Below are positions 5,295-35,162 of a stretch of 64,000 nt of DNA, piece after piece. The stretch's first letter is position 1. Each line of letters starts with the position of its first letter. The stretch comes from Janibacter terrae NBRC 107853 (GTDB taxonomy: Bacteria; Actinomycetota; Actinomycetes; Actinomycetales; Dermatophilaceae): positions 186,001 through 250,000 of the forward strand of contig NZ_BCUV01000003.1 of assembly GCF_001591405.1 (NCBI RefSeq), in the 5' to 3' direction. The position numbers and the translations under genes are program-made. Below the pieces are notes generated by a model. The model saw only the letters and a list, made by a program, of their open reading frames with translations, made no database searches and was not told the DNA's origin.

Positions 5295-7151
<1,857 letters not shown>

Positions 7152-30745: not shown

Positions 30746-32551
<1,806 letters not shown>

Positions 32552-32557
32552 GCCCGG

Positions 32558-32587
32558 CGAAGGGGGAGGCGCGAGCCTCCCCCTTCG
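32558..32587. terminator. Bidirectional terminator between leuA and alkB
   Basis: A 13-bp perfect stem with a GCGA loop (CGAAGGGGGAGGC paired with its complement) lies between two convergent genes, 6 bases after the leuA stop and 6 before the alkB stop. Both arms carry the GAAGGGGG motif. Confidence 0.85.
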
Positions 32588-32593
32588 TGCGTC

Positions 32594-33217
32594 TCAGCGC
32601 ACGCCGGCCACGCGGAACTGGATCGACACCCGGGGCCCCACCGCCGCCGAGGTCTTGGGCACCGCGTGGTCCCAGGTGCGCTGGCAGGCGCCGCCCATGA
32701 CGACGAGGTCGCCGTGGCCGAGCGCGACCCGCTGCGACGGACCGCCGTCACGCGGGCGCAGCGCGAGGTGGCGGGCCGAGCCGAGAGAGACGATCGCGAC
32801 CATCGTGTCCTGCTCGCGGCTGCGCCCGATGCGGTCGCCGTGCCAGGCGACCGAGTCCTCGCCGTGGCGGTACAGGCACATGCCGGCGGTGACGAAGGGC
32901 TCGCCGAGCTCGCTGGCGTAGTGCTGGGAGAGGCGCTCGCGCATGTCGGCGACGAGCGGGTGGGGCAGGGGCTCCCCTGCGCGGTAGAAGCAGGTCAGGC
33001 GCGGCACGTCGACGACGGAGTCGTACATCTTGCGCCGCTCCGCCCGCCACGGGACCTCGTGCAGGAGCGTGTCGAGCACCTCGTCGGTGCCGCACGCCCA
33101 TCCCGGCACGAGGTCGAGCCAAGCCGTGCCGTCGAGGAATCGCCGGTGACGCCGCTCGAGGTCACCGAGGGTGGGGGAGTCGGCCGTGTCGAAGAGCGAG
33201 GACTGGAGCGCCTGCAT
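32594..33217 (-). CDS. alkB: Alkylated DNA repair dioxygenase AlkB
   Basis: 207 residues. Fe(II)/2-oxoglutarate dioxygenase that removes methyl adducts such as 1-meA and 3-meC. The iron ligands are visible: HxD in VAWHGDRIG and the distal His in RTWDHAVPK. The 2-oxoglutarate Arg and the substrate loop are in RVSIQFR. TAGGGT lies 6 bases before the ATG, so the mRNA is probably leaderless, and a perfect LexA box sits just upstream. It is convergent with leuA. Confidence 0.9.
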   Translation of the reverse strand: MQALQSSLFDTADSPTLGDLERRHRRFLDGTAWLDLVPGWACGTDEVLDTLLHEVPWRAERRKMYDSVVDVPRLTCFYRAGEPLPHPLVADMRERLSQHYASELGEPFVTAGMCLYRHGEDSVAWHGDRIGRSREQDTMVAIVSLGSARHLALRPRDGGPSQRVALGHGDLVVMGGACQRTWDHAVPKTSAAVGPRVSIQFRVAGVR

Positions 33218-33237
33218 ACCACGACCCTAGCAGCCCC

Positions 33238-33253
33238 TCGAACACACGTTCGA
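33238..33253 (-). promoter_or_regulatory. LexA (SOS) box upstream of alkB
   Basis: TCGAAC-ACAC-GTTCGA is an exact match to the Gram-positive/actinobacterial LexA consensus TCGAAC-N4-GTTCGA. It spans about -21 to -36 relative to the alkB ATG, just upstream of the TAGGGT -10 (33224-33229), where LexA would block polymerase. The gene on its other side, 22 bases away, ends there, so alkB is the only target. Confidence 0.88.
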
Positions 33254-33274
33254 TGATTCGCGATGGCGTGTCGC

Positions 33275-34315
33275 TCAGCCTGCGGCCACCGGGTGGTCGC
33301 CCTTCGCGCGCAGGCGCAGGCCGGCGGCGCTGGCCACGAGCAGCACGGCCCCGGCGACGAGCAGGGCCCCGGCGGCGCCGAGCGCACCGTCCGAGTAGTC
33401 CACCGCGGCCTCGGTGGCGGCCATCGTCAGCGCGACGACTCCGACGCCGAGGTAGGGCCACGACTGCGTCCGGACGTAGGCGAGGAAGCCGAGGACGCCG
33501 ACGACCGCCAGCAGCGCGTAGGAGACCCACGCGTGCTCCCAGCCCATGGCGACCTGGGCGCCGAGGATCGCCAGGACTCCTCCGACGGCGCGCCCGAGAT
33601 GGGTCTCGCGCCACAGCCCGGTCTCGGTCAGGGCGATCCATGCGGCGGCGAGCCCGAGGAGCGAGGCCGCGGCCACGAGCGGGGCGTTGTCCGAGGCGTC
33701 CGGCCCGAGGGCCAGCGTCATCGTCGTGATGGCCGCGGTGAATGCGGCGCCGAGCTGGCCGAGCCCGGTCGGTACGAAGCGGTAGCCGAGGACCATGAGC
33801 GCGCACGCCGTGCCGAAGCCGATGCTCACCGTGTAGGGCTCGCGCAGGTCGAGGACGTGGGTCGCCCACACCCCCGCCGCGCCTCCCGCGACAGCGGCGG
33901 CCGCCACGGCCAGCGTGCCCGCCAGGAGCAGCCGGGCCTGCCGCGCCAGCTCGGGGAGGGTCGCGGCGGAGCGTGCCGTGAGCCGCACGGCGACGGCGCC
34001 GGCGGCCAGGACGAGGGCGCTGACGAGCAGTGCCGCCACGCGGGTGCCCGGGCCCATCCGCGACCACTGCGAGGCGAGGAAGACCGCGGCTGCCGCGATG
34101 ACGAGGATGCCGCCGAGGTAGCCGGCGATCTCCGCGGCGATCCGGCCCGCAGGCGGGCGCGCAGTGGCTGGCTCCGGCCCGACGTCCACATGGCGGGCCA
34201 GCACGGCGCCCGCCCGGTCCCGGTCGCCCTCGGCGACGACACCCGCCCGGACGAGGTCGTCGGCGATCTGCCGGGAGCGAAGGGGGAGTGGGGCCTCGTA
34301 CGCGCGCCTGCCCAT
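33275..34315 (-). CDS. Polytopic membrane protein (DUF2157-like)
   Basis: 346 residues. The N-terminal about 60 are soluble ([27 protein letters not shown]), then about ten hydrophobic helices rich in Ala, Leu and Gly ([23 protein letters not shown] ... [21 protein letters not shown]). A short soluble head followed by YLGGxLVxxAAxxF resembles the DUF2157 family, function unknown. Good Shine-Dalgarno (AGGAGG) before the ATG. It is divergent from recO, 100 bases away. Confidence 0.65.
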
Positions 34316-34415
34316 GGTGAGCCTCCTGAGGACGACACCGCCGTGGCGTCACTCCCATTGTCCGCCCGGCGTGGCCGCCGTGGGAAGACCCGTCGTGCGT
34401 AGGACAATGGGGTGC

Positions 34416-35162
34416 ATGCCCCTCTACCGCGACTCCGGGGTCGTGCTGCGCACCCACAAGCTGGGCGAGGCCGACCGGATCATCACCGTGCTCACCCGCG
34501 GGCGCGGCAAGATCCGCACGGTGGCGAAGGGGGTCCGCCGCACGAAGTCGAAGTTCGGCGCTCGCCTCGAGCCGGGCATGCACGTCGACCTGCAGTGCTA
34601 CGAGGGCCGCAACCTCGACACCGTGACCCAGACCGAGTCGATCGACGCGTGGGGCGACGTCATCGCCCGCGACTACGCGCGCTGGACGGCGGCCACCGCG
34701 ATCCTCGAGACGGCCGACCGGCTGACCGAGGAGCACGAGCCGGCGCTGCAGCAGTACCACCTGCTCGCGGGTGCGCTGCGCTCGCTCGCCCAGGGTGACC
34801 ATGCCGCCGAGCTCGTCCTGGACGCGTACCTCCTGCGGGCGCTGGCGGTCGCCGGCTGGGCACCGAGCTTCCACGACTGCGCCCGGTGCGGCGACGAGGG
34901 CCCGCACCGCGCCTTCCACGTCGCCTCCGGTGGCGTCGTGTGCCGCAGCTGCCGCGTCCCCGGGGCCAACGCCCCCGCCCCCGAGACCCTCACCCTGCTC
35001 GCCGCGCTCCTCGCCGGTGACTGGGTGGTCGCGGACGCCTCCCTCGACCGGCACCGACGGGAGGGGTCCGGCCTGACCGCCGCCTTCCTCCAGTGGCATC
35101 TCGAGCGCGGGGTGCTCTCCCTTCGTCACGTCGACCGCACCCAACCGCAGAGGACCGGATGA
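34416..35162 (+). CDS. recO: DNA repair protein RecO
   Basis: 248 residues. Loads RecA at gaps with RecF and RecR. The N-terminal OB fold begins [32 protein letters not shown], and the zinc finger is [25 protein letters not shown]. The start has GACAAT 7 bases upstream, a probable leaderless arrangement. The stop overlaps uppS by 4 bases. Confidence 0.94.

Follow-up and report, generated by a model that had tools for sequence, protein, structure and literature searches.

A perfect candidate LexA box at a probably leaderless alkB promoter in Janibacter terrae, and its recurrence among Actinomycetota

In Escherichia coli, alkB belongs to the ada-alkB adaptive response, in which Ada acts as the inducer. 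In the Actinomycetota, LexA/SOS control of AlkB has been published for two species. According to the passages of PMC9380542 cited here, ChIP-seq places alkB of Streptomyces venezuelae (vnz_32390) among the core LexA targets, and the gene goes up 11-fold with mitomycin C; Table 1 of that paper marks the alkB box as validated, while its text on SPR names lexA, recA, dnaE2 and uvrA. Passages of PMC8151990 describe Mycobacterium tuberculosis AlkB (Rv1000c) as the product of a putative SOS-box-regulated gene, detected only after mitomycin C. The first-pass annotation of the locus studied here had presented LexA control of alkB as unusual, on the ground that AlkB-type repair is usually linked to Ada and not to SOS. 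This generalization fits E. coli, but it fails for the Actinomycetota as far as these passages go (PMC9380542, PMC8151990). The box is kept in close relatives and the control has been published for both S. venezuelae and M. tuberculosis, so the wiring is real and the surprise is not upheld. Two further papers, PMC7739468 and PMC2248561, cover actinobacterial LexA and leave alkB unnamed in the passages concerned, and a title-level literature search, with most subscription journals outside its reach, returned no work on alkB-LexA control over the whole phylum. The LexA-alkB link itself is already known, and what is added here is its breadth, the shifting position of the operator and the divergent recO neighbour.

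The window, i.e. the whole stretch of 64,000 nucleotides that was analysed, was scanned for TCGAAC-N4-GTTCGA, and it turned out that TCGAACACACGTTCGA at 33238-33253 is the sole exact copy in the 64 kb. When up to two mismatches were allowed, 6 sites were found while shuffles average 2.9 sites per window, so weak matches by themselves carry little weight. A site with one mismatch at 6400-6415 lies within long open frames and is probably a chance match. On the minus strand, TCGAACGTGTGTTCGA (33253-33238) is followed by 8 nt, TAGGGT (33229-33224), 6 nt and the ATG of alkB (33217-33215), and the features of the neighbourhood are collected in Table 1. The perfect box just upstream of a TAGGGT -10, which the first-pass annotation had placed within 33217-33253, is exactly there, 8 nt from the -10, and these coordinates are correct. 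A spacer of 17-18 nt would put the -35 inside the box, so bound LexA would cover both the -35 and the spacer. As the -10 ends 6 nt ahead of the ATG, the alkB transcript is probably leaderless, its first base being the A of the ATG or a neighbour of it. A consensus scan of 32400-34500 found neither a sigma-70 promoter nor a terminator, and such a scan is blind to promoters with a -10 alone.

Table 1. Features around the alkB start in the window (positions of the window)
Feature	Position	Strand	Basis
Candidate LexA box, perfect palindrome TCGAAC-N4-GTTCGA	33238..33253	-	exact match; over expected -35/spacer of alkB promoter
-10 element TAGGGT (TANNNT type)	33224..33229	-	direct reading
6-nt gap, -10 to ATG	33218..33223	-	direct reading
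alkB, AlkB-type 2OG-Fe(II) dioxygenase, 207 aa	32594..33217	-	PF13532, E 9.4e-16
DUF2157-like membrane protein gene	33275..34315	-	PF09925, E 2.8e-5, under Pfam cut-off
recO	34416..35162	+	PF11967 and PF02565

The match of the gene product to the AlkB-like 2OG-Fe(II) oxygenase domain PF13532 exceeds the cut-off. H126, D128, H184, R196 and R202 do not vary among 9 aligned sequences and line up with identical residues in ALKBH3; we take the first three to be the HxD...H iron ligands and the last two to be the C-terminal arginines of AlkB dioxygenases. The closest solved structures are 16 PDB sequences matched at E<=0.001, all of them ALKBH3 (best 8.6e-16) or ALKBH2 entries, and E. coli AlkB is absent among these 16. 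Judging from its sequence, the product is an AlkB-type dioxygenase, for which repair of alkylated bases is predicted. The gene was found in all 16 genomes of the genus, in which AlkB identity is 82-93% except for one genome at 69% (G149), and the nearest named loci belong to Janibacter sp. Soil728 (93%) and Candidatus Janibacter merdipullorum (91%).

Within the genus, a box with 0 or 1 mismatch starts 36-38 bp ahead of alkB in 15 of 16 genomes. The only member that has no box adjacent to alkB is G117, in which an IS110-family transposase gene (PF01548, PF02371; L303:2636-3766) separates the -10 of alkB from its ATG. Beyond the element, 1319 bp from the ATG, G117 keeps an exact box and a TACGCT -10, so this genome has a split promoter and not a lost operator. 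The empty insertion site is seen in G138, where the query ends match adjoining bases, while G150 has two other copies of the same element at 87%. An exact box and one with a single mismatch precede the LexA-like gene of G117. Loss of the box in this close relative was considered and rejected, since the IS110-family insertion accounts for the exception. Besides, the SOS promoter of G117 now faces the transposase, and AGGAG stands immediately before its alkB ATG.

For the family we drew 149 genomes, of which 134 have alkB and 15 gave no match; three distant second copies (L150-L152) were treated separately, and we omitted a weak additional match in G019, a fragment in G025 and another in G153 (L244, too short). 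The box positions given below rest on starts chosen by script, a choice that favours starts with a -10. Generally, most family loci carry the box: it is exact in 29, has one mismatch in 41 and two in 33, i.e. 103 of 134 loci at <=2 mismatches. Dinucleotide-shuffled versions of these windows reach this level in 22 of 2680 cases, and other windows from the family loci in 20 of 823 (here with loci of the three distant homologues included). The same box upstream of alkB in relatives, proposed as a check by the first-pass annotation, is present in both genus and family. The remaining 31 loci exceed two mismatches; of these, 24 retain an intact half-site close to the start, whereas 7, G117 among them, lack one. 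Overall, an intact half-site (TCGAAC then A/G, or its mirror) within -60 to +20 occurs in 116 of 134 loci and in 45 of 2680 shuffles. The three distant AlkB-like second copies, at 34-43% identity, have no box at <=2 mismatches (5, 3 and 5 mismatches).

The promoter layout is conserved together with the box. In 119 of the 134 family loci and 78 of the 80 named ones, TANNNT ends 5-8 nt ahead of the alkB start codon, and the gap is 6 or 7 nt in 116 of the 134 with a sharp peak at these two values, while the shuffle background is about 0.9-1% per position. An earlier count favoured starts having a -10 and was set aside, so these figures come from a count free of that preference. Together with the 6-nt gap at our locus, they bear out the suspicion of the first-pass annotation that the alkB start is probably leaderless.

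The position of the box on the promoter shifts among relatives. In the family, box centres lie between -41 and 0, with 73 in the range -45 to -27, 20 at -26 to -12 and 10 at -11 or 0. Where the centre is at 0, the start codon falls inside the box; this is the case for 9 loci of the family, 1 named locus and 3 loci of the phylum draw, with L145, L188 and L265 as examples. In two distant actinobacteria (L265 and L287), there are two LexA-like boxes before alkB, the second of which spans the GTG start codon. The 80 named loci, which include Streptomyces, Micromonospora, Amycolatopsis and Aeromicrobium, are the best matches to the query and not a random set; a few are from the family and some may duplicate strains among our genomes. 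A box at <=2 mismatches is present in 57 of them, compared with 15 of 1311 control windows, and 50 of the 57 boxes are centred between -45 and 0, while the other 7 are further upstream and may be chance matches. In an even draw over the phylum, 58 of 296 genomes have an alkB match. Outside the family, 53 loci of this draw were read, 50 with a usable start (G262 and G328, with split or weak matches, were left out); a box at <=2 mismatches is present in 33 of the 50, in 28 of which it is centred at -45 to 0, and 17 of the 50 have none at this threshold. Three families (f9, f41 and f47) show no box near the start in 11 loci, with one 2-mismatch match at -128, although a LexA DNA-binding domain is encoded in each of these 11 genomes. 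Streptomyces, Micromonospora, Amycolatopsis and distant actinobacteria all include loci with the box, yet it is not everywhere.

We also counted the palindrome over whole genomes. The exact form has 4 copies in the 3.58-Mb genome of our strain and 93 over the 16 genus genomes (2-8 each), while a backward control pattern has 0 in all 16. At <=1 mismatch, our genome contains 16 sites and the backward pattern 6; as this control is not empty, some 1-mismatch sites are expected by chance and the argument leans on exact sites and conservation. There are 12 sites with exactly one mismatch, several of which sit in open frames and look like chance. One may ask whether the palindrome before alkB is itself a chance match or the site of another regulator, considering that sites with 1-2 mismatches do arise by chance in this G+C-rich genome. 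The 93 to 0 difference for exact matches, the conservation of position and pattern and the presence of the same sequence at lexA make this extremely improbable, and a chance match in particular was rejected on the genome-wide counts and shuffles.

The other boxes of the genome outline a candidate LexA regulon. The lexA gene (PF01726, PF00717) has an exact box and a second box 70 bp off with one mismatch, and recA, followed by recX, has TCGAACACCTGTACGG with two mismatches, 190 bp upstream of its ATG. The first-pass annotation had asked for lexA and recA with the same box; lexA has it, and recA only in part, its 2-mismatch box being a counterpoint to full SOS wiring. For comparison, the recA box of G462 is at -155, and that of S. 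venezuelae is printed at -162 in the passages of PMC9380542. An exact box also stands immediately ahead of a DUF6504 gene, after which come a HEPN_SAV_6107 gene and a PHP-domain gene resembling the beginning of DnaE2; on the opposite side of this box, 87 bp off, there is a polyprenyl synthetase gene. Boxes with one mismatch lie 3 bp before possible starts of four DUF222 genes (L036, L042, L043 and L044, at 1501-1516 in each), three of which have an HNH match. Besides, an exact LexA box is located between aconitase and dxs, 538 bp before dxs (L032:1501-1516; G000:C6:148243-148258), and its target is ambiguous. In M. tuberculosis, the RecA-dependent genes named in passages of PMC8151990 include imuA', imuB, dnaE2, alkB, recX, five putative HNH endonucleases and lexA, a set which the box-bearing genes of our genome closely resemble.

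The box might also serve mainly the divergent recO gene, or both genes, so that its place before alkB would be partly a by-product. At our locus, the DUF2157-like gene, upstream of alkB and on the same strand, ends at 33275, 21 bases from the box, and lies between alkB and recO, which begins about 1.16 kb past the box; leuA is downstream of alkB on the other strand. In many relatives recO is much closer. It directly adjoins the alkB upstream region in 14 of 16 genus genomes, and of the 134 family loci 65 have a divergent recO N-terminus <=480 bp from alkB, as do all 7 additional genus loci and 8 of the 80 named ones; wherever recO is close, it is divergent and the box is in the stretch between alkB and recO, a stretch of only about 57 bp in one family member (L017). 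On the other hand, the box of our genome is still exact although recO is 1.16 kb off behind another gene. Moreover, recO is missing within 480 bp at 69 of the 134 family loci and at 72 of the 80 named ones, and by subtraction at least 38 of these 69 and at least 42 of these 72 keep the box near the alkB start. We regard a box that serves mainly recO, or both genes, as unlikely.

Alternatively, alkB might be governed by an Ada-type adaptive response, the arrangement found in E. coli. Within the family the Ada zinc domain (PF02805) does occur: 56 of 149 genomes match and 41 match strongly. In the genus, however, there are only partial matches in 2 of 16 genomes, and a domain search of our own genome gave no match. 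The box at <=2 mismatches is present before alkB in 22 of 36 genomes with strong Ada and in 81 of 98 without it (Fisher p 0.012); kinship is ignored in this comparison, so we make no claim that the presence of Ada weakens the box. Ada control was rejected for our locus, the genome having no Ada domain, and we give it hardly any chance.

The box, the -10, the leaderless geometry, the AlkB-type gene, the boxed lexA and recA, the conservation and the absence of the Ada domain are all shown by the sequence. With a probability of roughly 0.9, we consider that alkB belongs to the LexA (SOS) regulon and would be directly repressed at a leaderless promoter. The direct LexA control put forward in the first-pass annotation gains support from three sides at the sequence level, namely the box on the promoter, the boxed lexA and recA, and the conservation. 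In an undamaged cell, a LexA dimer would bind the 16-bp box, cover the -35 and spacer and keep the alkB promoter off. DNA damage would activate RecA and lead to self-cleavage of LexA, by which alkB would be derepressed. RNA polymerase would then transcribe alkB without a leader, starting at the ATG or right beside it, and AlkB is expected to take alkyl groups off DNA bases.

LexA may be one of several inputs, with a LexA-independent damage route (PafBC-like or other) driving much of the induction of alkB. In passages of PMC8151990, M. tuberculosis AlkB was overproduced in a recA-deleted, pafBC-silenced strain, and alkB was still responsive to mitomycin C. Between the box and the ATG of our locus, no second element was recognised by eye. 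A large share for such a route is a tentative possibility, clearly less probable than membership of alkB in the LexA regulon, and it deserves more weight than the alternatives discussed above.

The comparison over the phylum allows a wider proposal. For the ALKBH2/3-like AlkB of Actinomycetota, control by LexA may be an ancient default throughout the phylum, in which the operator was kept while moving from the -35/spacer to the -10 and the start codon. An operator that is kept while it moves along the promoter would mean that selection acts on the link as such and not on any single site, and Dermatophilaceae may also couple AlkB to the divergent RecO. We hold the odds of this proposal to be about even. 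It favours the idea that, across much of a bacterial lineage, the oxidative reversal of alkylation damage answers to the general SOS alarm in place of the dedicated Ada sensor of textbooks; if so, AlkB would be produced after any replication-blocking damage. The varied operator positions and one natural IS insertion also provide material for studying how a repressor site drifts with its target kept.

The S. venezuelae box can be compared directly with our loci. The printed alkB box GGTTACGCTGGATC plus one base was found in 3 of 295 genomes of one genus (that of G335), which is Streptomyces by blastn to named loci (83-88%). In all 3 genomes the extended sequence immediately precedes the alkB ATG and TACGCT forms the -10, and LexA-like sequences are located about 20 bp above it (L274, L275 and L276, with 2, 3 and 3 mismatches, the third by eye). 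The box is printed at -20 in the passages of PMC9380542, compared with -15 in the three loci read here. It is possible that the alkB box given in these passages coincides with the -10 region, and that the better LexA-like sites are those about 20 bp upstream.

In conclusion, the alkB locus of our strain shares features with each of the described systems. It has in common with the E. coli ada-alkB system an AlkB-type dioxygenase that would be made on demand, and differs from it in that Ada is missing here by domain search. Named loci from Streptomyces share the -10/ATG layout of our locus and many of them have a box upstream, but their boxes before alkB are imperfect compared with the perfect palindrome found here. 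M. tuberculosis Rv1000c, which is also made without RecA, resembles our alkB and its candidate regulon in being counted with lexA, dnaE2 and HNH endonucleases, according to passages of PMC8151990.
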